DNA of 62,101 nucleotides. It comes from Pseudomonadota bacterium. Lineage in GTDB: Bacteria; Bdellovibrionota; Bacteriovoracia; Bacteriovoracales; Bacteriovoracaceae. The stretch lies in NCBI GenBank assembly GCA_027487685.1, contig JAIYDC010000131.1:1-62101 (forward strand), read 5' to 3'. A program made the translations under genes and the position numbers. The notes under the pieces are model-generated. The model worked only from the letters and a program-made list of their open reading frames with translations, was not told the DNA's origin and ran no database searches. Shown one piece after another: positions 8,726-19,597 of this stretch; positions within the stretch are counted from its first letter, which is position 1; the number at the start of each line of letters is the position of its first letter.

Positions 8726-10645
8726 GTGAAAAATCGTATTTTCTTCAGCTTTGTTGTCTTTTGCCTTCTCTTCGCAGTGGTCGTTGGTAAGGCATTCTAT
8801 ATCCAGGTTGTGAACAAGGCGCGACTCCTGGCCTATGCTAAGTCTCAGTTCATCCGAGAGGTTAAAGAGTACCCGAATCGGGGAAACATTCTCGATCGAA
8901 ACGGAAACCCACTCGCGATTAATGTTCACGTTTATAATCTCTTCACGATCCCCCGTAAGAAGAACGCGGAATTTTATGAGCAACTTCGGGCGCTCTCGAA
9001 GGCCGTGCCAGAGCTTCCCTATGCTAAACTTCGCGCACTGGTGCAGAAGCGAACGAAGTACACATGGCTCGGGCGGAAGATTAAACTTTCAGAAGAACAG
9101 CTAAAGAAGATAAAGAAGCTCGAAGGGATCTTTATTGAGGGGCATACAGAACGAGTCTACCCCAACCGGGAGCTCGTCGCTCAGACGATAGGTTTTGTGG
9201 GCATCGATAATACGGGCCTTGGCGGTATCGAGAACAGCTTAAACGAGGCCCTTAAGGGAAAGCCCCAGGTGGTGAAGTACATTCGAGACGCTAAGGGGCG
9301 TCCGATAAAGTATGAAACCCGCGCTTCAGACCTGTTTTCACCAGACGTACGTCTCTCGATTGATAAAGATATTCAAGGTGCACTTGAGAGCTACCTCAAG
9401 GAAGCGGTCACACACCACGAAGCTTTACGTGGCGGGGCCGGAGTTATGGATGCGGAGACAGGTGAGATTCTTGCTATCGCTAACTATCCAACCTTTGACC
9501 CTAATCGCGCTACGACCTATCCACTTGAGAACCGCAAGCTTGCTTTTGTCACGGACCCATTTGAACCTGGTTCAATATTTAAAACACTGACTATTGCCTC
9601 GGCTCTTGAGAATAAGATCGCTAAGCCAGAGACTAAGTTTTTTTGCGAATACGGTAAAATGAAAGTTCAAAACCACTGGATCTCCGAAGCTGAGACACAT
9701 GAACGTTATGAGTGGTTGACTGTCTCAGATATCCTAAAGTTTAGCTCGAATGTAGGAACCACCAAGATAGCTTTTGCGCTAAAGTACCCAAAGCTGCGTG
9801 AGACGTTAGATAAGTTTCAGATCGCACAAAAGACAGGGATTGAAATCAAAGGCGAGTCGAAAGGGATTCTGAGCTATAAAGCAACCGACAAAGTCCGGCC
9901 TCTGAGCCTCAGTAACATCAGCTTCGGTCAGGGTGTAGCAACCACCGCCATCCAGATGTTGCGCGCCTACGCCGCAATTGCTAACGGTGGTTACCTTATT
10001 AAACCCACTTTGCTTCGAAGCGATACTTCGCAACTTCGTCCTGAAAACCGCATACTCAGTGCCAAAACTTCGCAAGAGCTTACGCGCATGTTGATATCAG
10101 TGGTTAGCGAAGGCACCGGAGATAACGCAAGAATCCCTCACTACGAGATTGCTGGCAAGACCGGTACGGCCCAGCGCGTGTCTCCGGCCGGAGGTTACGC
10201 AGGCTACATCGGAAGTTTTGTCGGCTTTCCGGTCAACGTGAATAAGAAGTTTGTTGTCCTCGCTTACGTCGACCACCCCACTGCAAATGGCTACTACGGA
10301 GGTGCGACAGCGGCGCCCATTTTTAAAAAAATTACTCAGTACATTCTCTATAAGAAAAAAGACTTTGCCCAGTTTGCCAAATATGACGAGAAATCAAATT
10401 CTAAAAATCTCGATGAGGTCAACACCCAGCAGGCCCAGACGACAAAAGTGTTTGCTCCTGGATTTATGCCAGATTTTGCTGGTCTCGATAAGGCGAGTGC
10501 CCTCCATTTGGCAGAGGAGAGAAATATTGAACTCGAACTCTACGGTTACGGAGTCGTGACGAAGCAATCAGTAACCGCAGGGAGTGAGATCGTCGGGAGA
10601 ACTGCCTTACGCCTCCACTTCGAAGCGCCTACTTATGCTGAATGA
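8726..10645 (+). CDS. ftsI: Septal peptidoglycan transpeptidase FtsI (PBP3)
   Basis: FtsI is the class B penicillin-binding protein that crosslinks septal peptidoglycan with FtsW. The 639-residue protein has one N-terminal transmembrane segment (residues 5-22), the pedestal domain starting with RGNILDRNGNPLAI, and a transpeptidase domain with the catalytic EPGSIFK (Ser-x-x-Lys), SSN in KFSSNVGT and KTG in AGKTGTAQR. A C-terminal PASTA-like region (MPDFAGLDKASALHLAE to about residue 630) resembles that of sporulation and Gram-positive FtsI paralogs. It starts with GTG nine bases after ftsL and overlaps murE by 11 bases. Confidence 0.95.
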   Translation: MKNRIFFSFVVFCLLFAVVVGKAFYIQVVNKARLLAYAKSQFIREVKEYPNRGNILDRNGNPLAINVHVYNLFTIPRKKNAEFYEQLRALSKAVPELPYAKLRALVQKRTKYTWLGRKIKLSEEQLKKIKKLEGIFIEGHTERVYPNRELVAQTIGFVGIDNTGLGGIENSLNEALKGKPQVVKYIRDAKGRPIKYETRASDLFSPDVRLSIDKDIQGALESYLKEAVTHHEALRGGAGVMDAETGEILAIANYPTFDPNRATTYPLENRKLAFVTDPFEPGSIFKTLTIASALENKIAKPETKFFCEYGKMKVQNHWISEAETHERYEWLTVSDILKFSSNVGTTKIAFALKYPKLRETLDKFQIAQKTGIEIKGESKGILSYKATDKVRPLSLSNISFGQGVATTAIQMLRAYAAIANGGYLIKPTLLRSDTSQLRPENRILSAKTSQELTRMLISVVSEGTGDNARIPHYEIAGKTGTAQRVSPAGGYAGYIGSFVGFPVNVNKKFVVLAYVDHPTANGYYGGATAAPIFKKITQYILYKKKDFAQFAKYDEKSNSKNLDEVNTQQAQTTKVFAPGFMPDFAGLDKASALHLAEERNIELELYGYGVVTKQSVTAGSEIVGRTALRLHFEAPTYAE

Positions 10646-11996
10646 AAAAACCTTAGGTCCTTTGCTTAATCTACAACTTCCTCCGCTGACCGTAAGTGAT
10701 GTGCATTGGAAGACACAAGATTCTGATAAAGATTCACTGCTTTTTTATCGAATCCCCCCGGAGGATGGAGCGGAATCCCTTTTTCGGGAGCGAATTTTGA
10801 GCGCTCGCTTTGCCTGGCTTATCTTGAACCAGGATCACCCGGCGAGACCTTCGAATAGCTCGATAATCTCCGAGAAAGACTGGCCCCGCATCCAGGAAGC
10901 TCTTCTCGATCTTCTCTATCCACTCCCACCGTTGAAGCTGCTGGCAGTTACGGGAACTAACGGTAAAACAACCACGGCAGACCTGGTCCTGCAGTTAGGT
11001 GAGCTTTGCGGTAAAAAAGGGATCTCCATTGGAACTCTTGGAGTTCGCGAAAATCACCATACTCTTTTGAATTTTGGACTCACCTCCCCAAGCTTTATTG
11101 ACCTTAGAAAATTTCTCCACCGTTTTGAGGCCGGCAAGGATTTTTGCATCCTCGAGGCAAGTTCTCACGCATTGATCCAAGGGAGGCTCCAGGGACTTAA
11201 GTTTGATGCAGCCGGTTGGTTATCATTCTCTCAAGATCATCTTGATTATCATAAGACCATGGAAGAGTACTTTTCCGCGAAAATGATTCTCTTTGATTAT
11301 TTGTCTGATGCTGCTCAACTCTTTGTACCGACTCAACAACGTGAGCTGTTCGATCGGATTCGCCAACGGACTCAGCGAGTGACCCTAGCACCAGAGATTA
11401 TAGGCCCTCTTCCGCTCTTTTTCTCTGCCAGGTTTAATCGGAATAACCTCGAAGTTGCAGCGGCCATAGTTGAGACGGCTTTTGATCTCTCAATTCCCGC
11501 TGTATACGACAGGCTTGTTGCACCAGATGGCCGCTTTTTTGTCAGAGCTTATGGAGAAAGTTATATCGTCGTCGACTTCGCCCACTCTCCCGACGCTCTC
11601 GAAAACATCTGTCGGGGTATACGCGAGGCCTTTCCTGATCATGAATTGAAGGTGCTCTTTGGCTGTGGCGGAGACCGTGACCGATCCAAGCGTGGACAGA
11701 TGGGTCAAATTGCCGAGTCTTATGCAGCTGAAATTTATGTAACGAGTGATAATCCGCGGTCCGAGGATCCTGAAAAGATTATGGATGACATCCTCTCAGG
11801 TATCAAAAGGTCCGGAATCCGCCGGAATGTTGATAGACGCGCCTGCGTCCAGCAAGCCTTAGAAGAACTTCAAGGGAAAGAGGTCCTTCTTTTAGCAGGC
11901 AAGGGCCATGAGGATTACATCCTGAGCAAGGGTGTAAAGCAACCCTATAGTGATATCGTCGAAGTTGAATCGTTTCTTGCAAGGAATGGCACATGA
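10635..11996 (+). CDS. murE: UDP-MurNAc-tripeptide synthetase MurE, probably meso-DAP-adding
   Basis: MurE adds the third stem-peptide residue to UDP-MurNAc-L-Ala-D-Glu using ATP. The ATG at 10635, inside the end of ftsI, gives 453 residues. A longer frame to 10584 lies entirely inside ftsI and is unlikely. Visible motifs are the P-loop TGTNGKTTTAD, SQDHLDYH, the lysine in YFSAKMILFDYL that is carbamylated in this family, and DFAHSPDALEN. The specificity motif reads DNPRSEDP. In known enzymes DNPR marks meso-diaminopimelate, as opposed to DNPA-type lysine enzymes. The N-terminal domain is somewhat short. Its end overlaps murF by ATGA. Confidence 0.93.
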   Translation: MLNEKTLGPLLNLQLPPLTVSDVHWKTQDSDKDSLLFYRIPPEDGAESLFRERILSARFAWLILNQDHPARPSNSSIISEKDWPRIQEALLDLLYPLPPLKLLAVTGTNGKTTTADLVLQLGELCGKKGISIGTLGVRENHHTLLNFGLTSPSFIDLRKFLHRFEAGKDFCILEASSHALIQGRLQGLKFDAAGWLSFSQDHLDYHKTMEEYFSAKMILFDYLSDAAQLFVPTQQRELFDRIRQRTQRVTLAPEIIGPLPLFFSARFNRNNLEVAAAIVETAFDLSIPAVYDRLVAPDGRFFVRAYGESYIVVDFAHSPDALENICRGIREAFPDHELKVLFGCGGDRDRSKRGQMGQIAESYAAEIYVTSDNPRSEDPEKIMDDILSGIKRSGIRRNVDRRACVQQALEELQGKEVLLLAGKGHEDYILSKGVKQPYSDIVEVESFLARNGT

Positions 11997-13390
11997 TTAA
12001 TCTCTCTCACATTTCAACATGTCCCTCGGTTCTACTTCCGTTTAGCCGCGAGGGCCATCTCGCCTTCACAACGGATACTCGCAAGTACCAACACCCTGGT
12101 GCGTTTGTGGCGATCCCTGGTGCCAAAGTTAATCCTTTAGATCTGATCGGGGATATCTTGAAGAAAGAGTGTCCCATCATTTTCTTCCAGCAGGATGTTG
12201 TTAACGATACTAAGGTTCGAGAGCTTCGATTGGTCTATCCTAAAACCGAGTTTATTCCTGTAAGCGATAGCGTTACTTTTCTCCAGGAATTATCCCATCG
12301 ACACATCCAAGACTGGAAGAGAAGGAATCTGCGGAACATTGTTTTTGCAATCTCCGGGTCCAACGGTAAGACCACTCATAAGGAGATGCTCTCCTATCTT
12401 CTAAGCGAAGTGCTTCCAGGCAAGGTTGTGGCAACGGAGAAGAATAATAATAACCACCTCGGTGTTCCGCTCACTCTTCTTAACGTTACCGATCGAACAG
12501 AGGTTGTGGTGCTAGAACTTGGCAGCAATCATCCTGGCGAAATTCGGGTCCTTTGTGATATTGCTTTACCATCGGCCGGAATAACGACCAACATCGGTGC
12601 GACACACATGGAGTTCTTCGGCACCGAGCAAAATGTTTTCGAAGAAGAAGCTTTCCTCTACCACGCCGTTCGAAATGTGACTCACGGCCACGGACTCTAC
12701 CTCATCAATAGGGATGACCCTTATCTGCGGCAGCTTGAAAGTACAAAAGGATCAGTGACTTTCGGGGAGGCCGGTGATGCCCAGGCACGGATTTCATATC
12801 TAGACGACGGTGCTGAACTTCATTTCGCCGGTAAAACTCTTATCGCCCGAAATTCCCACATTACAGGGAGGCACAACAAGCTCAATCTGATCACTTGTCT
12901 TTTCATCGCAGATACTCTTTATCCAGAGCACAAAGAACAATTCGTCGAGGCTTGTAGAAACTTTCGCCCAACGAAGAACCGTTCAGAATGGATTGAGTTT
13001 GAAAAACGTCCCGTTTACCTCGACGCTTATAACGCGAACCCCTCTTCCATGAAGGCCGCTCTAGAGGGTTTCAAAGAAAGTGTCATCTCTCAGGGTTTTA
13101 ACCTTGCCGACACTTGCGTCGTACTTGGGGACATGAACGAACTTGGCGATTCAACCCCCCAGTATCACAAAGAGCTTGGCCGATTTGTGAAGGAGTTGGG
13201 TTTCCCGCATGTCTTCTTTGTGGGTCGTTTCACTGCTCATTACCTTGAAGGCAATCCAGCAGGACGTCCCCGCCCCTCTTGCGCTGGGTTTAAGGATGAG
13301 TACCGTTCTGATTGTTTGAAGAAATACGCGATCCACTTTATTAAAGGGTCGCGCTCTTTACAATTGGAGTCACTGTTCGATATAACTTAA
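11993..13390 (+). CDS. murF: UDP-MurNAc-tripeptide:D-alanyl-D-alanine ligase MurF
   Basis: MurF adds D-Ala-D-Ala to complete the UDP-MurNAc pentapeptide. The 465-residue protein has TDTRKYQHPGAFVAI early, the P-loop SGSNGKTTHKEML, the MurF-specific TEKNNNNHLGVPLTLL and ELGSNHPGEI, TNIGATHMEFF, and YNANPSSMKAAL in the C-terminal domain. All ATP and substrate motifs are intact, in contrast to the neighbouring MurD. Its start overlaps the murE stop. A small hairpin separates it from mraY. Confidence 0.95.
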   Translation: MINLSHISTCPSVLLPFSREGHLAFTTDTRKYQHPGAFVAIPGAKVNPLDLIGDILKKECPIIFFQQDVVNDTKVRELRLVYPKTEFIPVSDSVTFLQELSHRHIQDWKRRNLRNIVFAISGSNGKTTHKEMLSYLLSEVLPGKVVATEKNNNNHLGVPLTLLNVTDRTEVVVLELGSNHPGEIRVLCDIALPSAGITTNIGATHMEFFGTEQNVFEEEAFLYHAVRNVTHGHGLYLINRDDPYLRQLESTKGSVTFGEAGDAQARISYLDDGAELHFAGKTLIARNSHITGRHNKLNLITCLFIADTLYPEHKEQFVEACRNFRPTKNRSEWIEFEKRPVYLDAYNANPSSMKAALEGFKESVISQGFNLADTCVVLGDMNELGDSTPQYHKELGRFVKELGFPHVFFVGRFTAHYLEGNPAGRPRPSCAGFKDEYRSDCLKKYAIHFIKGSRSLQLESLFDIT

Positions 13391-13415: not shown

Positions 13416-14492
13416 ATGCTGTATCATTGGCTTTACCCACTAAGTCAAAATATTCATTTATTTAACGTCTTCAAGTACATTACGTTCCGTTCTTTCCTCG
13501 CTTTCATTATCGCGACTTTCGTCTCGATCTTCTGGGGGAAACGGTTCATTCTCCTCATGAAGCTACGTCAGTTTGGTCAGACTATCCGAGAGGAAGGGCC
13601 TGAGTCTCATAAGAAAAAGAAAGGCACCCCTACTTTTGGTGGCGTCTTTATCTTAGGCTCTGCGATGATTGCTTGTGCGATTTGTGGAAACTTTGTCTCC
13701 TTCCCTTTTCTTTTGGCCCTGTTTGTTACCATCTCCTATTTCTTCCTTGGCGGTCTCGACGACTACCTGAAGGTGCTTAAAAAGAATACGAAGGGTGTGT
13801 CTGCTAGACAGAAGCTCCTGTGGCAGTTTTCTACCGGCCTTTTGGCCGCTTACGTAATGATTCGCTGGAACATTACAGATTCACAGGTGTATCTTCCTTT
13901 CGTGAAGGACCCCGTCATTGATATCGGCTGGTTTTACGTTCCTTTTGCGGCATTTGTTATTGTTGGTTCCTCAAACGCCTTGAACCTTACCGACGGTCTT
14001 GATGGCTTGGCCATCGGTCCTACTATCATATCGGCGGCTACGCTTGGTCTACTCTCATACCTTGCGGGCCACACTGAACTGGCCAACTACCTTTTTATTC
14101 CCCATGTGCCTGATGTGGGAGAACTTCTGGTATTAGTGGCGGCAATCATCGGCGCCGGTGTGGGTTTTCTCTGGTACAACGCTTATCCAGCAGAAATCTT
14201 CATGGGAGACGTAGGGTCTTTGTCTCTTGGCGGTTGCCTTGGAACGATTGCAGTCCTTACCAAAAACGAGTTCCTCTTCGTTCTGATCGGTGGGATCTTT
14301 GTTATTGAAGCTGTTTCGGTTATCCTCCAGGTCGCTTCATTTAAGACGAGAGGCAAGCGGATCTTTAAAATGGCCCCAATTCATCATCACTTTGAGCTGA
14401 CCGGCTGGCCTGAAACGAAGGTTATTGTTCGATTTTGGATCGTTAGTCTTATATTCGCGATCCTGGCACTTGCGACATTGAAACTTAGATAA
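13416..14492 (+). CDS. mraY: Phospho-N-acetylmuramoyl-pentapeptide transferase MraY
   Basis: MraY moves phospho-MurNAc-pentapeptide onto undecaprenyl phosphate in the inner membrane, making lipid I. The 358-residue polytopic protein has about ten hydrophobic segments and the family motifs: KKGTPTFGG after the first helix, the Mg-binding aspartates in FLGGLDDYLK, NLTDGLDGLA, MGDVGSLSLGG, and the cytoplasmic histidine cluster PIHHHFELTGWPE. It lies 25 bases after murF and 18 bases before murD. Confidence 0.97.
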   Translation: MLYHWLYPLSQNIHLFNVFKYITFRSFLAFIIATFVSIFWGKRFILLMKLRQFGQTIREEGPESHKKKKGTPTFGGVFILGSAMIACAICGNFVSFPFLLALFVTISYFFLGGLDDYLKVLKKNTKGVSARQKLLWQFSTGLLAAYVMIRWNITDSQVYLPFVKDPVIDIGWFYVPFAAFVIVGSSNALNLTDGLDGLAIGPTIISAATLGLLSYLAGHTELANYLFIPHVPDVGELLVLVAAIIGAGVGFLWYNAYPAEIFMGDVGSLSLGGCLGTIAVLTKNEFLFVLIGGIFVIEAVSVILQVASFKTRGKRIFKMAPIHHHFELTGWPETKVIVRFWIVSLIFAILALATLKLR

Positions 14493-14510: not shown

Positions 14511-15893
14511 ATGGAAAAGTATAAAGGAAAAAAAATCCTCGTCGTGGGCTTAGGGAAGACTGGCTTTGCGCTGATCAACCTGTTCACTCAGTGGGGCTGC
14601 GAAATTAAGGTCACGGACATTAAGCCAATCTTTGATTTGAATAAGCAGGTCAAGCGTTTAAAAAAGATCTCCCCGACTCCGGGCATGACCCTCGGTGAAC
14701 ACAGGGATGAAGACTTTATTGAAGCTGATATTATTGTCTACTCTTCATCGGTAGATCCTAATCTCTCTCAGCTTAAGGTTGCACGGGAGCACGGCCGGCT
14801 GGTGTATTCTGACTTTGCCTTCGCTGTCGAGAACTGTGCAAAGCCAATCGTCGCCGTGTGTGGTTCCCATGGAAGGACCATCACCGCGCACATGATCGGG
14901 TACACTTTAAAAATCGACAAAAAGAACGTTTTTGTCGGTGGCACATCGGAAGAGCCGTTTATCAATTTTTTGAGTCTACCGAACCGCGAAGAAGTGGACT
15001 ACTGCGTGATTGAGGTCTCCCCTCAGCAGCTTCAGACAGTCGAGAACTTCAAACCGGTACTTGCGGTCTACCCTAACCTTGAGGAGAAAAATCTTCTCGG
15101 TCGTTTCAGAAGTTCCGCTGAGTACCTGGACACTGCACTGAAGGTCGCGCGAAGTCTTGGCCCGGAAAACTTTCTCGTTGTGAATTTTGACAAGCTGGCT
15201 TCTAATTCTGTCCTTCGTTCTTCTCAGGCACAGACATTTTGGTACTCACGTAAGTCCTTTGTTACTATGGGTGTAATCTCAGAAATTCAGGGGACTCATT
15301 TCCACGATAAGCGGATCCACTGCAATATCCATTTCCATTCGGAGTTCAAGGTTACGGATATGCGCATCGTCGGGGTGAACAATCGCGAGAACCTCATGGC
15401 CGCCATCACTGCCTGTAAGGCGCTTAAAGTTTCTGATCACTCGATCCAACAGTGCATCGAAAAGTTCCCTGGTATCCCACATCGGCTCGAGTTCGTGGTC
15501 GAAAAAAACGGTGTCCGCTTCTACAATGACTCTAAGTCAGAGACTATGGAAGAACTCAAGGTTTCGCTCGAGGCTTTCAAGGATCAGGTTATTCTGATCG
15601 CTGGAGGAAAGGAGATTGAGGGGATTCCTTTTGATAAGTACTCGGGGATTATCCATGAGAAAGTCCGTGTCCTCGTTCTCGTTGGCGAGGTAAAGGAGAC
15701 GATGAACAGAATTCTCGGCGATATGACTCAAACCTTCCTGGTTGGATCTTTTGATGAATCGGTCCTTCTGGCCTACCAGAAGTCCCGAACTGGTGACACG
15801 ATTCTCCTTTGCCCAGGTAACGAGTCGACGGATGTATTCCGTGATTTTGAGGAGAAAGGAAACTACTACAAAAAGCTTATTTTTCAACTCTAG
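14511..15893 (+). CDS. murD: MurD-like ligase (UDP-MurNAc-L-Ala:D-Glu ligase) with degenerate ATP site
   Basis: By order and overall sequence this 460-residue protein is MurD, which adds D-glutamate to UDP-MurNAc-L-alanine. The N-terminal VVGLGKTGFALI domain and the C-terminal HRLEFVVEKNGVRFYNDSK segment (residues 324-342) fit the family well. The central ATPase domain does not. The P-loop reads CGSHGRTI (117-124) with Arg122 where all active Mur ligases have lysine. The TxDHxDRH block is replaced by PNLEEKNLLGRF (188-199). The lysine carbamylated in Escherichia coli MurD aligns with Ala209, and the late SPAxASxD motif reads CPGNESTD. The neighbouring MurC, E and F keep all these residues. 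AGGAG precedes the ATG. It is either a highly unusual MurD or a non-catalytic relative. It ends before a strong hairpin. Confidence 0.85.
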   Translation: MEKYKGKKILVVGLGKTGFALINLFTQWGCEIKVTDIKPIFDLNKQVKRLKKISPTPGMTLGEHRDEDFIEADIIVYSSSVDPNLSQLKVAREHGRLVYSDFAFAVENCAKPIVAVCGSHGRTITAHMIGYTLKIDKKNVFVGGTSEEPFINFLSLPNREEVDYCVIEVSPQQLQTVENFKPVLAVYPNLEEKNLLGRFRSSAEYLDTALKVARSLGPENFLVVNFDKLASNSVLRSSQAQTFWYSRKSFVTMGVISEIQGTHFHDKRIHCNIHFHSEFKVTDMRIVGVNNRENLMAAITACKALKVSDHSIQQCIEKFPGIPHRLEFVVEKNGVRFYNDSKSETMEELKVSLEAFKDQVILIAGGKEIEGIPFDKYSGIIHEKVRVLVLVGEVKETMNRILGDMTQTFLVGSFDESVLLAYQKSRTGDTILLCPGNESTDVFRDFEEKGNYYKKLIFQL

Positions 15894-16003: not shown

Positions 16004-17167
16004 ATGAGTGAAAATAACCGACTAGAAAAGTTAACCAACTACTTTTTAATTAATGTTTTTTTCCTGATTCTGTTCGGTGTCATTATGGTCTTCTCCGCCA
16101 GCTATATGTACGCTACGGAGAACATGGGATCGAGTTACCACTTCCTGGCCAAGCAGCTTTTCTTTGTTGCTCTGGGCCTCGCTGGTGCCCTAGTCTTTTC
16201 CAAACTTAAAATCCTCTACCTCTACCGGCACGCCTATAAAATCAATGCATTTTTTGGACTTCTGTTGACGCTAACTCTCGTGCCCGGGCTTCGGGTGGTG
16301 ATCAAGGGTTCCAAGCGTTGGCTTAATTTGGGCTTCATGCACCTTCAGCCCGGTGAGTTTTTGAAGTTCACCCTCATGCTGGCGGCTATCCGTTACTTTG
16401 AGAACTTCAATAACTATACTTCGAAGCAGCGAGTTCTCTACCTGTCTGGAATTGTCTATCCTCTCGCGATTTTTGTCGTGCAGCCAGATTTCGGAACGTT
16501 CTTCATCTGTGCTTTGATCATCGGCTTTATTGCTTTCCTGAGTTCATTCCCGCGCAAGTACTTCTACTCAGTCCTCATCTTTGGCTTCATTGGTGCCTCC
16601 ATGATTCTTGTCTCGGCCCCATACCGAATGAAGCGCCTTTTGACCTTCCTCGACCCGTGGAAAGATCCAAGAGGCTCAGGCTTTCAGGTGATCCAATCAT
16701 TCCTTGCCTTTGCCAATGGATCTTTCTTCGGTCAAGGCCTGGGCAATAGCAACGAAAAACTTTTTTACCTTCCAGAGGCTTACAACGATTTCATTTTCTC
16801 TGTAGTGGGTGAGGAACTTGGTTTTATTGGGGTCGTCGTAACTGTCTTGATGTTCCTGAGCCTCATTTTTATAGGCTTTAAAATTGCTGTCTCTCTGAAG
16901 TCTCGGGTCGGCGGTATCCTGGTCTCTGCTATCATTTTTGCTATCGGCTTCCAGGCATTTATGAATATGGGTGTGGTTCTGGGTGTGCTTCCGACTAAAG
17001 GACTCAACCTGCCCTTCGTAAGTTATGGCGGCTCATCGATGGTTGCGAACCTAGCGGCGCTAGGTCTCATCTTCGCATGCGTAAAAATCCAGCCAAGCGA
17101 CGCTAAGGACAGCCGAAGCAGGACGAAAAATCATCCTGTAGCTGCACTCAAGAGCGTGTTTAACTGA
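16004..17167 (+). CDS. ftsW: Septal peptidoglycan glycosyltransferase FtsW
   Basis: FtsW is the SEDS-family polymerase that works with FtsI at the septum. The 387-residue protein has about ten membrane segments, GSKRWLNLG in the first large loop, LQPGEFLKF, QPDFGTFFI, the catalytic-loop region with DPWKDPRGSGFQVIQS, and near the end GLNLPFVSYGGSSM. The cytoplasmic C-tail is short and basic. It is the first gene after a hairpin and a candidate promoter. Its TGA overlaps the murG start (TGATG). Confidence 0.96.
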   Translation: MSENNRLEKLTNYFLINVFFLILFGVIMVFSASYMYATENMGSSYHFLAKQLFFVALGLAGALVFSKLKILYLYRHAYKINAFFGLLLTLTLVPGLRVVIKGSKRWLNLGFMHLQPGEFLKFTLMLAAIRYFENFNNYTSKQRVLYLSGIVYPLAIFVVQPDFGTFFICALIIGFIAFLSSFPRKYFYSVLIFGFIGASMILVSAPYRMKRLLTFLDPWKDPRGSGFQVIQSFLAFANGSFFGQGLGNSNEKLFYLPEAYNDFIFSVVGEELGFIGVVVTVLMFLSLIFIGFKIAVSLKSRVGGILVSAIIFAIGFQAFMNMGVVLGVLPTKGLNLPFVSYGGSSMVANLAALGLIFACVKIQPSDAKDSRSRTKNHPVAALKSVFN

Positions 17168-18237
17168 TGAAGACCAGAATTAAATCTTCAGCTGTTCTCG
17201 TTGCCGGAGGAACCGGTGGTCATATCAACGCTGCTTTGGCTATTGGAGAGGCCCTTTCTGGGGACGGCTGGCGGGTACGCTACGTAACGGGTGAGAGGCC
17301 CCTCGACTATAAGCTTTTCAAGGGCCAGCCGGTTAAGCACCTTTCTTCCCGGCCCCTCCGCACAAGTCATCCGTTAAAACTCGTTACGAATCTGGCTAAA
17401 AATCTCCTAAGTTTTATTTGGGTCTTGGTTGCTTTCCTCCAGGACCGTCCGACAGTCATTGTTGGGGCCGGTGGCTATGTCTGTGGGCCAACTCTCTTGG
17501 CCGGATTTCTGCTTCGGATCCCGGTCTTTATCATTGAGCAGAACGCAGTTATGGGTCTCACGAACCGGATCTTGGGCTGGATCTCGACCCGAATCTTTGT
17601 CCACTTTTCAAAGACCAGAGGTCTTTCGTCTAAACTCAAAGAAAAAGTCAGGGTCGTTGGTAACCCGACCCGCAAATCGATCAGGCCGGCGCCATTTAAG
17701 GGTTTTGATGGCCAGCTTAAAGTCCTGGTTTTTGGCGGAAGCCTGGGAGCTGAGCAAATCAATAAAGTGGTCTGGGACGTTCTTCGCTCTCCGGCCGTGC
17801 TGCCCCTTGCGATTCATCATCAACTAGGGGGAGACGCCAAGGCTCCTGAGCTCGGGACTACTGCCTCTTACCTTCCTCTTAATTACATCGAGGATATGCA
17901 GAAAGAGTACGAGTGGTGCGATGTGATTATTTCACGCGCCGGAGCAAGCACCGTATCCGAACTTGCGATTATCAGGAAGCCCGTTTTATTCTTTCCCTAC
18001 CCTGCAGCCACGGATAATCATCAGTTTCTAAACGCCAAGATCTTTCAGGAAGAATCTGACTTCACTGTTAAGGTTCTTGACCCCAACCTTCGACATGAAG
18101 ACGCTGTTCGTGAGACGCAGGAATTTCTTTCCAAGGCTTCCCGACAGGAGTTAAAGTACAGCAAAAATCCCTCCCCAGGGAATTACACCTGCGACGCAGT
18201 GATAAGAGAGATTAAAGAGCATGTTGGGTTGGCTTAA
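17167..18237 (+). CDS. murG: Lipid II synthase MurG
   Basis: MurG is the membrane-associated GT-B glycosyltransferase that adds GlcNAc to lipid I to make lipid II. The 356-residue protein shows the N-terminal glycine loop VAGGTGGHINAALAI, IVGAGGYVCGPTLLAG, IIEQNAVMGLTNR, the second-domain GGSLGAEQIN and the UDP-binding SRAGASTVSELAI, and VLFPYPAATDNHQ. The length is typical. It overlaps ftsW by one base and murC by 17 bases. Confidence 0.96.
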   Translation: MKTRIKSSAVLVAGGTGGHINAALAIGEALSGDGWRVRYVTGERPLDYKLFKGQPVKHLSSRPLRTSHPLKLVTNLAKNLLSFIWVLVAFLQDRPTVIVGAGGYVCGPTLLAGFLLRIPVFIIEQNAVMGLTNRILGWISTRIFVHFSKTRGLSSKLKEKVRVVGNPTRKSIRPAPFKGFDGQLKVLVFGGSLGAEQINKVVWDVLRSPAVLPLAIHHQLGGDAKAPELGTTASYLPLNYIEDMQKEYEWCDVIISRAGASTVSELAIIRKPVLFFPYPAATDNHQFLNAKIFQEESDFTVKVLDPNLRHEDAVRETQEFLSKASRQELKYSKNPSPGNYTCDAVIREIKEHVGLA

Positions 18238-19597
18238 AGCAACGAAACTTCATTTCATTGGAATCGGCGGTATCGGCATGAGTGGGATTGCCGAAGTACT
18301 TCTTGACCTGGGCTATCAGGTCTCGGGCTCAGATCTTAACAATTCAGCAGTTACGGAGAATCTTCAGCGCAAAGGTGCACAGATTCATATCGGTCACCGG
18401 GCAGAGAATGTGGAGGGCTCTACACTCGTGGTCTATAGCTCCGCCATCGATCCCCTGAACCCTGAAGTCATTCGGGCCAAGGAACTGGTCGTGCCCATGA
18501 TCCGTCGAGCCGAGATGCTCGCTGAGCTTATGCGGCTCAAATTCGGTATCGCCGTGGCCGGATCCCATGGAAAGACGACGACCACAAGCCTCATCGCCAC
18601 GATCTTTCAGGAGGCGAAACTCGATGCAACCTATATTATTGGTGGAATAGTTCGAAATCTCGGCGGTAATGCACGCAAGGGTGATGGAGATTACCTGATT
18701 GCTGAGGCGGATGAGTCTGATGGCTCATTTCTCTTGCTCAGCCCTATTGCTGCAGCGGTGACAAATATCGATGATGACCATCTTGACCATTATGGTAGTA
18801 AGGAAAAGATTGTTGAAGCCTTTGTAGAGTTTGTGAATAAGCTTCCTTTTTACGGGCGTGTCGCCCTGAATGCCAATGATGCAGCTTCTGTTGCAATAAA
18901 GTCGAAAGTTAAACGGCCAGTTTTATGGTACGGGATTGAGCTTGAAGGAGATAATGCCCTTTATGTTGCAAAAAATGTTGTCCTTTCTGCCGGTAGCACT
19001 GAATTCGACCTCTTCTATCGAGGAGAGAAAGTCCACAGACTTAAGACCCAGCTTATGGGCCTTCATAATGTTTCTAATACTCTTGCTGCCATTTCTATCT
19101 CACATGAAGCGGGCCTTGGCTGGGACGTCATCCAAAAAGGGCTTCTGAGCTTTCAGGGAGTTGGGCGCAGGCTCGAGAAACTCTTCGATGATGGAGGCTT
19201 TGTCGTCATTGATGATTATGGTCACCACCCTACTGAAGTGCGCGCTACGATCTCCACTCTGCGGAAAGTTGATACGCGCAAGCTCTGCGTAGTCTTCGAG
19301 CCCCATCGCTACACCCGAACTGAAAATTTTTGGAACGAGTTCCAAGACTGCTTTGAGGGTGCAGATGAGATCTTTGTTGCTCCTATTTACGCTGCATCAG
19401 AATCTCCAATCCCCGGTGTTACTGCCGAGGCCTTAGTAGCGTCGATGCAGGCGCGCGGAAAAAACGTTCGTTTCCTTTCTGCCCTCGACCAAATGGGAGA
19501 GCTTTTGGCCCAGCGCCGGTCTCTTCCCGTCGTCTTTGTTACACTTGGGGCAGGTACGATCTCCAAAAAGATTCGCGAGCTTGTTAAGGCGTTATGA
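18221..19597 (+). CDS. murC: UDP-N-acetylmuramate:L-alanine ligase MurC
   Basis: MurC attaches L-alanine to UDP-MurNAc, the first stem residue. The 458-residue product has GIGGIGMSGIAEVLL at the N-terminus, the P-loop AGSHGKTTTTSLIA, EADESDGSFL, NIDDDHLDHYG, and DDYGHHPTEVRATI with PHRYTRT in the C-terminal domain. All catalytic motifs are intact. The ATG lies inside the end of murG and the stop overlaps the murB start (ATGA). Confidence 0.96.
   Translation: MLGWLKATKLHFIGIGGIGMSGIAEVLLDLGYQVSGSDLNNSAVTENLQRKGAQIHIGHRAENVEGSTLVVYSSAIDPLNPEVIRAKELVVPMIRRAEMLAELMRLKFGIAVAGSHGKTTTTSLIATIFQEAKLDATYIIGGIVRNLGGNARKGDGDYLIAEADESDGSFLLLSPIAAAVTNIDDDHLDHYGSKEKIVEAFVEFVNKLPFYGRVALNANDAASVAIKSKVKRPVLWYGIELEGDNALYVAKNVVLSAGSTEFDLFYRGEKVHRLKTQLMGLHNVSNTLAAISISHEAGLGWDVIQKGLLSFQGVGRRLEKLFDDGGFVVIDDYGHHPTEVRATISTLRKVDTRKLCVVFEPHRYTRTENFWNEFQDCFEGADEIFVAPIYAASESPIPGVTAEALVASMQARGKNVRFLSALDQMGELLAQRRSLPVVFVTLGAGTISKKIRELVKAL

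Follow-up and report, generated by a model that had tools for sequence, protein, structure and literature searches.

The stretch of DNA analyzed here (hereafter, the window) spans positions 1 to 62,101 of contig JAIYDC010000131.1 (NCBI GenBank assembly GCA_027487685.1), 62,101 nucleotides from a member of the Bacteriovoracaceae. It carries a division and cell wall (dcw) cluster in the order ftsI-murE-murF-mraY-murD-ftsW-murG-murC-murB-(orf)-ftsA-ftsZ. The murD homolog of this cluster, which we designated murD1, is the subject of this report. The original prediction, made from the sequence of the window, was that MurD1 has a degenerate ATPase site in an otherwise normal Mur set, and that either the protein uses an unusual catalytic arrangement or another gene supplies the activity.

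MurD1 is a MurD by descent. A profile search placed it above the curated NCBIfam cut-off for MurD (TIGR01087, 252.8 bits versus 211.95), and the mraY-murD1-ftsW placement is kept across the family (f1), a group of predatory-type bacteria that record titles assign to the Bacteriovoracaceae/Halobacteriovoraceae (158 loci encode a relative, of which the best 80 were retained). Its predicted structure (predicted local distance difference test [pLDDT] score 79) is closest to solved structures of MurDs, with Z scores of about 27-32. In our tree, dcw-encoded MurDs, including the degenerate copies, form a single clade (support 98/91) from which only the divergent copies of family f9 are excluded; the degenerate copy is thus the vertically inherited dcw gene. 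The f9 proteins (L088, L089, and L090) are short, at 389-413 amino acids, and their GxHNxxN motif does not align, although the other catalytic motifs are kept. MurD1 was found in all 77 family genomes that are at least 90% complete, at 60-97% identity and nearly always at full length. One genome (G012) has two murD1 genes (on C39 and C7, 92% and 89% identical to the window); it shows 5% contamination and is probably a mixed bin.

To identify altered residues, we aligned MurD1 to Escherichia coli MurD, for whose residues we assume the roles known from published structures (contacts to metal, to UDP-N-acetylmuramoyl-L-alanine [UMA], to D-glutamate [D-Glu], and to ATP/Mg). Family counts were taken from 81 MurD1 sequences. 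Three of the predicted ATPase-site lesions were confirmed: the P-loop reads GSHGRT where E. coli has GSNGKS, the TxDHxDRH block is gone, with His present at the His183 position in 0 of 81 sequences, and the late SPACASLDQF of E. coli reads CPGNESTDVF. The fourth, loss of the carbamylated lysine, holds for the window but not family-wide (Table 1). Because the Lys-to-Arg change and the loss of His183 each occur in 81 of 81 sequences, they cannot be ascribed to chance or sequencing error.

The expectation that the substrate motifs would be kept fared less well. The UMA contact N138 and the D-Glu contact T321 are both replaced in most of the family, the D-Glu contact K348 is lost (Ile in the window, with Ile, Asn, Thr, and Val commonest in the family), and the loop corresponding to SPG 71-73 is missing, although the equivalent of the D-Glu contact S415 (Ser439) remains in the window and in 43 of 81 sequences. 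The lesion is therefore wider than the ATPase site. Conversely, the ATP side is only partly damaged, since E157, N271, R302, D317, and K319 have their equivalents in nearly every sequence (80-81 of 81), and the uracil-side residues (G13-G18, D36, and K38) are as in E. coli. MurD1 thus matches the E. coli enzyme in fold and length, in the order of its domains, in its place within dcw, at the uracil-side residues, and in several ATP contacts; it differs in the P-loop Lys, His183, in the window the carbamylated Lys, the altered N138, T321, K348, and SPAxAS positions, and a new conserved region at residues 245-286. MurD is known to require carbamylated K198 and Mg binding (PMC4816537; PMC3060825). 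With the P-loop Lys, His183, Lys198 (in the window), and D-Glu contacts of a working ligase missing, MurD1 would be expected to lack ligase activity. Nor is this simply an ordinary lineage variant of active MurD, because 26 dcw MurDs sampled from undamaged families keep these residues.

Table 1. Coordinates of murD1, its altered or conserved segments, and neighboring genes in the window.
Feature	Position	Strand	Basis or family conservation
MurD1 (dcw-cluster MurD homolog, 460 aa, putative pseudo-ligase)	14511..15893	+	TIGR01087, mraY-murD1-ftsW position, structural model
P-loop, residues 118-124 GSHGRTI, Arg122 for catalytic Lys115	14862..14882	+	Arg in 81/81
Residues 143-147 GGTSE for GGNIG, UMA contact N138 replaced by Thr145	14937..14951	+	80/81
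Residues 189-198 NLEEKNLLGR for NVTEDHMDR, metal/UMA ligand His183 lost	15075..15104	+	within most variable 20-residue block (181-200)
Ala209 at position of carbamylated Lys198	15135..15137	+	Lys in 39/81 of family
Residues 245-286, MurD1-specific near-invariant region, candidate binding surface	15243..15368	+	entropy, newly fixed residues
Residues 339-345 NDSKSET, D317/K319 equivalents kept, D-Glu contact T321 replaced by Glu344	15525..15545	+	Glu in 74/81
Late motif, residues 434-441 CPGNESTD for SPACASLD	15810..15833	+	alignment
C-terminal KKLIFQL	15870..15890	+	K454, K455, L456, Q459, L460 invariant in family
murE, motifs intact	10584..11996	+	
murF, intact apart from Glu at carbamylated-Lys position	11993..13390	+	
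mraY, 5' neighbor of murD1	13416..14492	+	
ftsW, 3' neighbor of murD1	16004..17167	+	
murC, motifs intact	18221..19597	+	

A second MurD (MurD2) is encoded elsewhere in the same genome (contig C117:28611-29933, minus strand, P0002, 441 amino acids). Its motifs are complete (GTNGKTTTT, GGNIG, EVSSFQL, NLFPNHSER, AK, GEHN, HRLE, NDAKSTN, and SPAFPSFDQF) and its structural model is confident (pLDDT 90). Such a protein was found in 74 of the 77 family genomes, in agreement with the suggestion that another gene supplies the activity; the suggestion of an unusual catalytic arrangement in MurD1 itself found no positive support. We considered whether the MurD2 contig might reflect contamination or mis-binning and rejected this, because the same divergently transcribed gene adjoins murD2 in 18 of 18 family loci, marking it as an old resident, and because the nearest relatives of MurD1 and MurD2 come from the same genome. 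The three genomes in which only MurD1 was found do not serve as proof that MurD1 is active: in G065 the contig stops within murD2, in G099 the gene that neighbors murD2 runs off a contig end, and G108 probably has an assembly gap.

A source of D-Glu is also present. Glutamate racemase (MurI) is encoded in this genome and in 65 of the 77 family genomes, and 11 of the 12 others have a D-amino-acid-aminotransferase-like gene that scores below the curated cut-off. The window's genome shows the opposite of this MurI-less, aminotransferase-like pattern. Given a motif-complete MurD2 and a D-Glu source, D-Glu ligation is likely performed by MurD2, with D-Glu from MurI.

An alternative is that MurD2 adds L-Glu, as does the Xanthomonas MurD2, which acts with the epimerase MurL and was described in bacteria without D-Glu genes (PMC8788868). 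That enzyme is a precedent for a MurD paralog with altered function, and of the four Glu-pocket positions that differ in this L-Glu-specific enzyme, the family's MurD2 shares three (Arg, Pro, and Phe); its uracil-site residues are also unusual, and the highly conserved MurD1 is the dcw copy. However, the Xanthomonas protein is active, whereas in f1 it is the dcw gene that has degenerated, and routes to D-Glu exist. The full Xanthomonas pattern, in which no D-Glu-forming enzyme is present and Glu at position 182 is combined with Arg at 348, was not found: MurD2 has the Arg, but Asn, Ser, or Thr rather than Glu at the position of E. coli D182, the second specificity-switching site. Moreover, the Arg is shared by the MurD of Streptococcus mutans, an ordinary D-Glu enzyme, MurD2 keeps every catalytic motif, and intermediate motifs were seen in no family member. 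The L-Glu alternative is thereby weakened, and we regard it as improbable.

Despite its lesions, MurD1 evolves slowly. Among 11 dcw proteins compared on one topology of 41 taxa, it has the shortest tree, at 5.0 substitutions per site, versus 8.3 for mraY, 8.7 for ftsA, 16.9 for murC, 21.7 for murF, and 25.0 for murE. Comparison of the window with its nearest relative gave a nonsynonymous rate (dN) of 0.018 and a synonymous rate (dS) of 1.67, hence a dN/dS of 0.011, for murD1, versus 0.060 for murD2 of the same two genomes; overall values for murD1 are about 0.01-0.03, although these ratios are rough because dS is near saturation. Synonymous change in murD1 is not unusual, which indicates that the constraint acts on the protein. 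MurD1 was more alike than MurD2 in 91 of 91 genome pairs, with mean identities of 70% and 45%. The original prediction held that a second canonical MurD would make MurD1 a paralog; the second MurD was found, but "just a paralog" is an incomplete description of an inherited dcw gene whose product ranks first in conservation among the 11 dcw proteins. The lost catalytic residues and the presence of a second copy could also suggest that the duplicate is redundant or in decay, or that assembly or contamination produced an artifact. We regard this as very improbable, given a gene that is present in every family genome searched, with the lowest rate of its cluster and a dN/dS of this order, and given a MurD2 contig that belongs to the genome. 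Rather, a protein whose catalytic center is broken yet that changes more slowly than any other in the cluster very probably has a job other than catalysis.

The distribution of constraint within MurD1 suggests where that job might reside. Because the sets differ in sampling depth, we compared MurD1 with intact dcw MurDs by rank within each set rather than by absolute value. Block 181-200, which is better conserved than average in intact dcw MurDs, is the most variable in MurD1; block 261-280, the most variable in intact dcw MurDs, ranks near the top for conservation in MurD1. The latter block lies within residues 245-286 (YSRKSF..GV..EIQGTHFH.RRIH.NI..HSEF.V..MRI), a segment that the alignment and predicted strands place in the central domain, directly before the GxHNxxN motif, and that contains a series of positions fixed in MurD1 alone. 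Mean entropy over 245-287 is 0.54 bits in MurD1 and 1.99 bits in intact dcw MurDs, values to be read by rank for the reason just given. We suggest that residues 245-286 form a docking surface.

These same data bear on whether MurD1 has instead been neofunctionalized as a still active ATP-dependent ligase, or an ATPase, with a different acceptor. The rebuilt D-Glu pocket (T321 to Glu, K348 lost) could take a cationic or other amine, with Arg in place of the P-loop lysine; Arg122 (81 of 81), Glu344 (74 of 81), and the retained E157, N271, R302, D317, and K319 equivalents would all suit such an enzyme, as would the very strong constraint. Yet a new active site should not lack His183 throughout the family or include the most variable loop of the protein (181-200), and the strongest new constraint is found at 245-286 instead. 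We therefore consider neofunctionalization unlikely.

Pseudoenzymes often stabilize or control active paralogs, and MurD1 could accordingly be a pseudo-subunit of MurD2, stabilizing or allosterically controlling the intact enzyme in a heteromer. The two proteins do co-occur in 74 of the 77 family genomes. They differ in conservation in a way that obligate partners would not be expected to, however, with MurD1 far ahead in all 91 pairs; their genes are unlinked, with murD2 keeping a neighborhood of its own; and E. coli MurD acts as a monomer. A MurD1-MurD2 heteromer thus seems improbable to us.

Our preferred explanation, which we hold to be reasonably probable, is that MurD1 is a pseudo-ligase whose catalysis has passed to MurD2 and that has been retained as a binding, scaffolding, or regulatory protein. 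It has what is expected of a pseudoenzyme, namely catalytic residues lost under purifying selection and a motif-complete paralog in the genome. The dcw MurD would have given up D-Glu ligation either once MurD2 had arrived or as it arrived, and MurD2 would now carry out this reaction from elsewhere in the genome. MurD1 would have stayed because something binds it, as a folded protein that possibly itself binds nucleotide and/or UDP-sugar; with its uracil-side and ATP-side residues retained, it could be regulated by ligands. Its job would be structural or regulatory, beside cell-wall precursor assembly, and would be exerted through the near-invariant 245-286 region and the conserved C terminus.

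Several observations weigh against this explanation. The kept E157, N271, R302, D317, and K319 equivalents could serve residual or altered catalysis, and the MurD1 model has low pLDDT at the catalytic loops. The G108 assembly lacks both MurD2 and its neighbor gene, probably through the gap noted above. Rate covariation of MurD1 with the other dcw genes revealed no partner (best value 0.16). Finally, families with an intact dcw MurD (f6, f11, f3, and f12) already conserve it as the top Mur ligase, level with MraY; part of the constraint therefore pre-dates catalytic loss and may have nothing to do with a new role.

That last observation also admits a broader idea. Relative to E. coli, the dcw MurDs of f6, f11, f3, and f12 are among the least conserved proteins (26-39%), and in a thin control from outside the phylum, self-normalized phmmer scores between E. 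coli and Pseudomonas aeruginosa were 0.41 for MurD and 0.59 for MurC. MurD thus scores below MurC there. Taken with the MraY-level conservation in families with an intact enzyme, these values suggest that an additional function of the phylum's dcw MurD could be older than the loss of catalysis. Tentatively, then, the dcw MurD of the phylum might have an ancient second, non-catalytic job of a kind unknown for any MurD, one that imposes MraY-level constraint on intact enzymes as well and becomes visible once a different MurD has taken over catalysis; in f1, the protein would be a dedicated structural hub, which might be essential for making or placing the lipid-linked precursor.

Comparable situations occur elsewhere in the phylum. 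A damaged dcw MurD together with a motif-complete second MurD was also found in f17 (two genomes), f7 (two), f22 (one), and f15 (one); the residues lost are not the same from one case to the next, and the damage is milder in f15 and f22. In the tree, the second MurDs of f1 form one clade (100/99), and those of f6, f7, and f17 another (100/100). The dcw MurDs of f1 and f17 are sisters (95/88) but their second MurDs are not; part of the loss may thus be common to both families. The dcw MurD of f7 looks relaxed (43% versus 69% for mraY), whereas that of f17 does not (73% versus 80% for mraY and 56% for murE). Like f1, the Bdellovibrionaceae-like f6, some of whose genomes are closed (3.78 Mb and 2.66 Mb), has two MurDs per genome with the second outside dcw; unlike f1, the f6 dcw MurDs that were examined keep their catalytic motifs, and the second copy comes from another clade.

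Some further genomes are worth noting. In closed Bdellovibrio-type genomes the second MurD lies outside dcw (G158:C1:46497-47771, minus strand) and groups in one clade with those of f7 and f17. A search of one closed f6 genome, G212, found the second type but no dcw MurD; at its locus L245 (9278-19000), a 9.7-kb open reading frame follows murE-murF, and the stretch read contains neither mraY nor murD. In f7 (L071 1196-2482, L072 3071-4087, L234, and L235), the dcw stretch read contains no murF, and a murF-like gene is found beside the second murD. Three genomes more than 90% complete (G042, G159 [f8], and G235 [f21]) gave no match above the MurD cut-off; their weaker matches, at 60-91 bits, may be other Mur ligases.

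The original prediction that the neighboring Mur ligases keep their motifs was borne out for MurC and MurE, but MurF departs from it, with VFEEEAFL in place of VAKAKGEI and hence Glu at the carbamylated-Lys position. Family MurFs have Glu (38 of 70) or Lys (32 of 70) here and keep the metal-side His in 70 of 70; the built-in carboxylate of the Glu may replace the carbamate. A search with the window MurG detected no murG between ftsW and murC in 26 of the family dcw loci L106-L185, although the gene is present in the window.

In the open-access literature searched, we found no publication on a degenerate MurD, a MurD pseudoenzyme, or a Bdellovibrio MurD. One parallel is the MurE-like PAP11, a subunit of the plastid-encoded RNA polymerase in plants (PMC9456514), which is matched in searches with E. 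coli MurE. As proposed for MurD1, PAP11 descends from a Mur ligase and has been retained as a stable component, in its case of a complex that has nothing to do with ligation; it differs in being of the MurE lineage, in acting in the plastid, and in having a known partner. In Bordetella, there is evidence for Mur ligase complexes scaffolded by a MurG oligomer (PMC6420597). Our proposal likewise places a Mur complex in the cytoplasm close to the membrane, but MurG is an active enzyme and a dead ligase is not involved.

One practical consequence is that automatic annotation can assign the MurD function of this family to the wrong gene, because MurD1 passes TIGR01087. More broadly, whether Mur ligases have non-catalytic duties in the precursor-synthesis complex is an old question that is hard to test where catalysis is essential. 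Evolution has apparently split the two here, leaving an intact MurD elsewhere in the genome and, in the dcw cluster, a constrained MurD-shaped protein without the catalytic residues. Thus, the side duties of Mur ligases should be directly testable in the cultivable Halobacteriovorax/Bacteriovorax.
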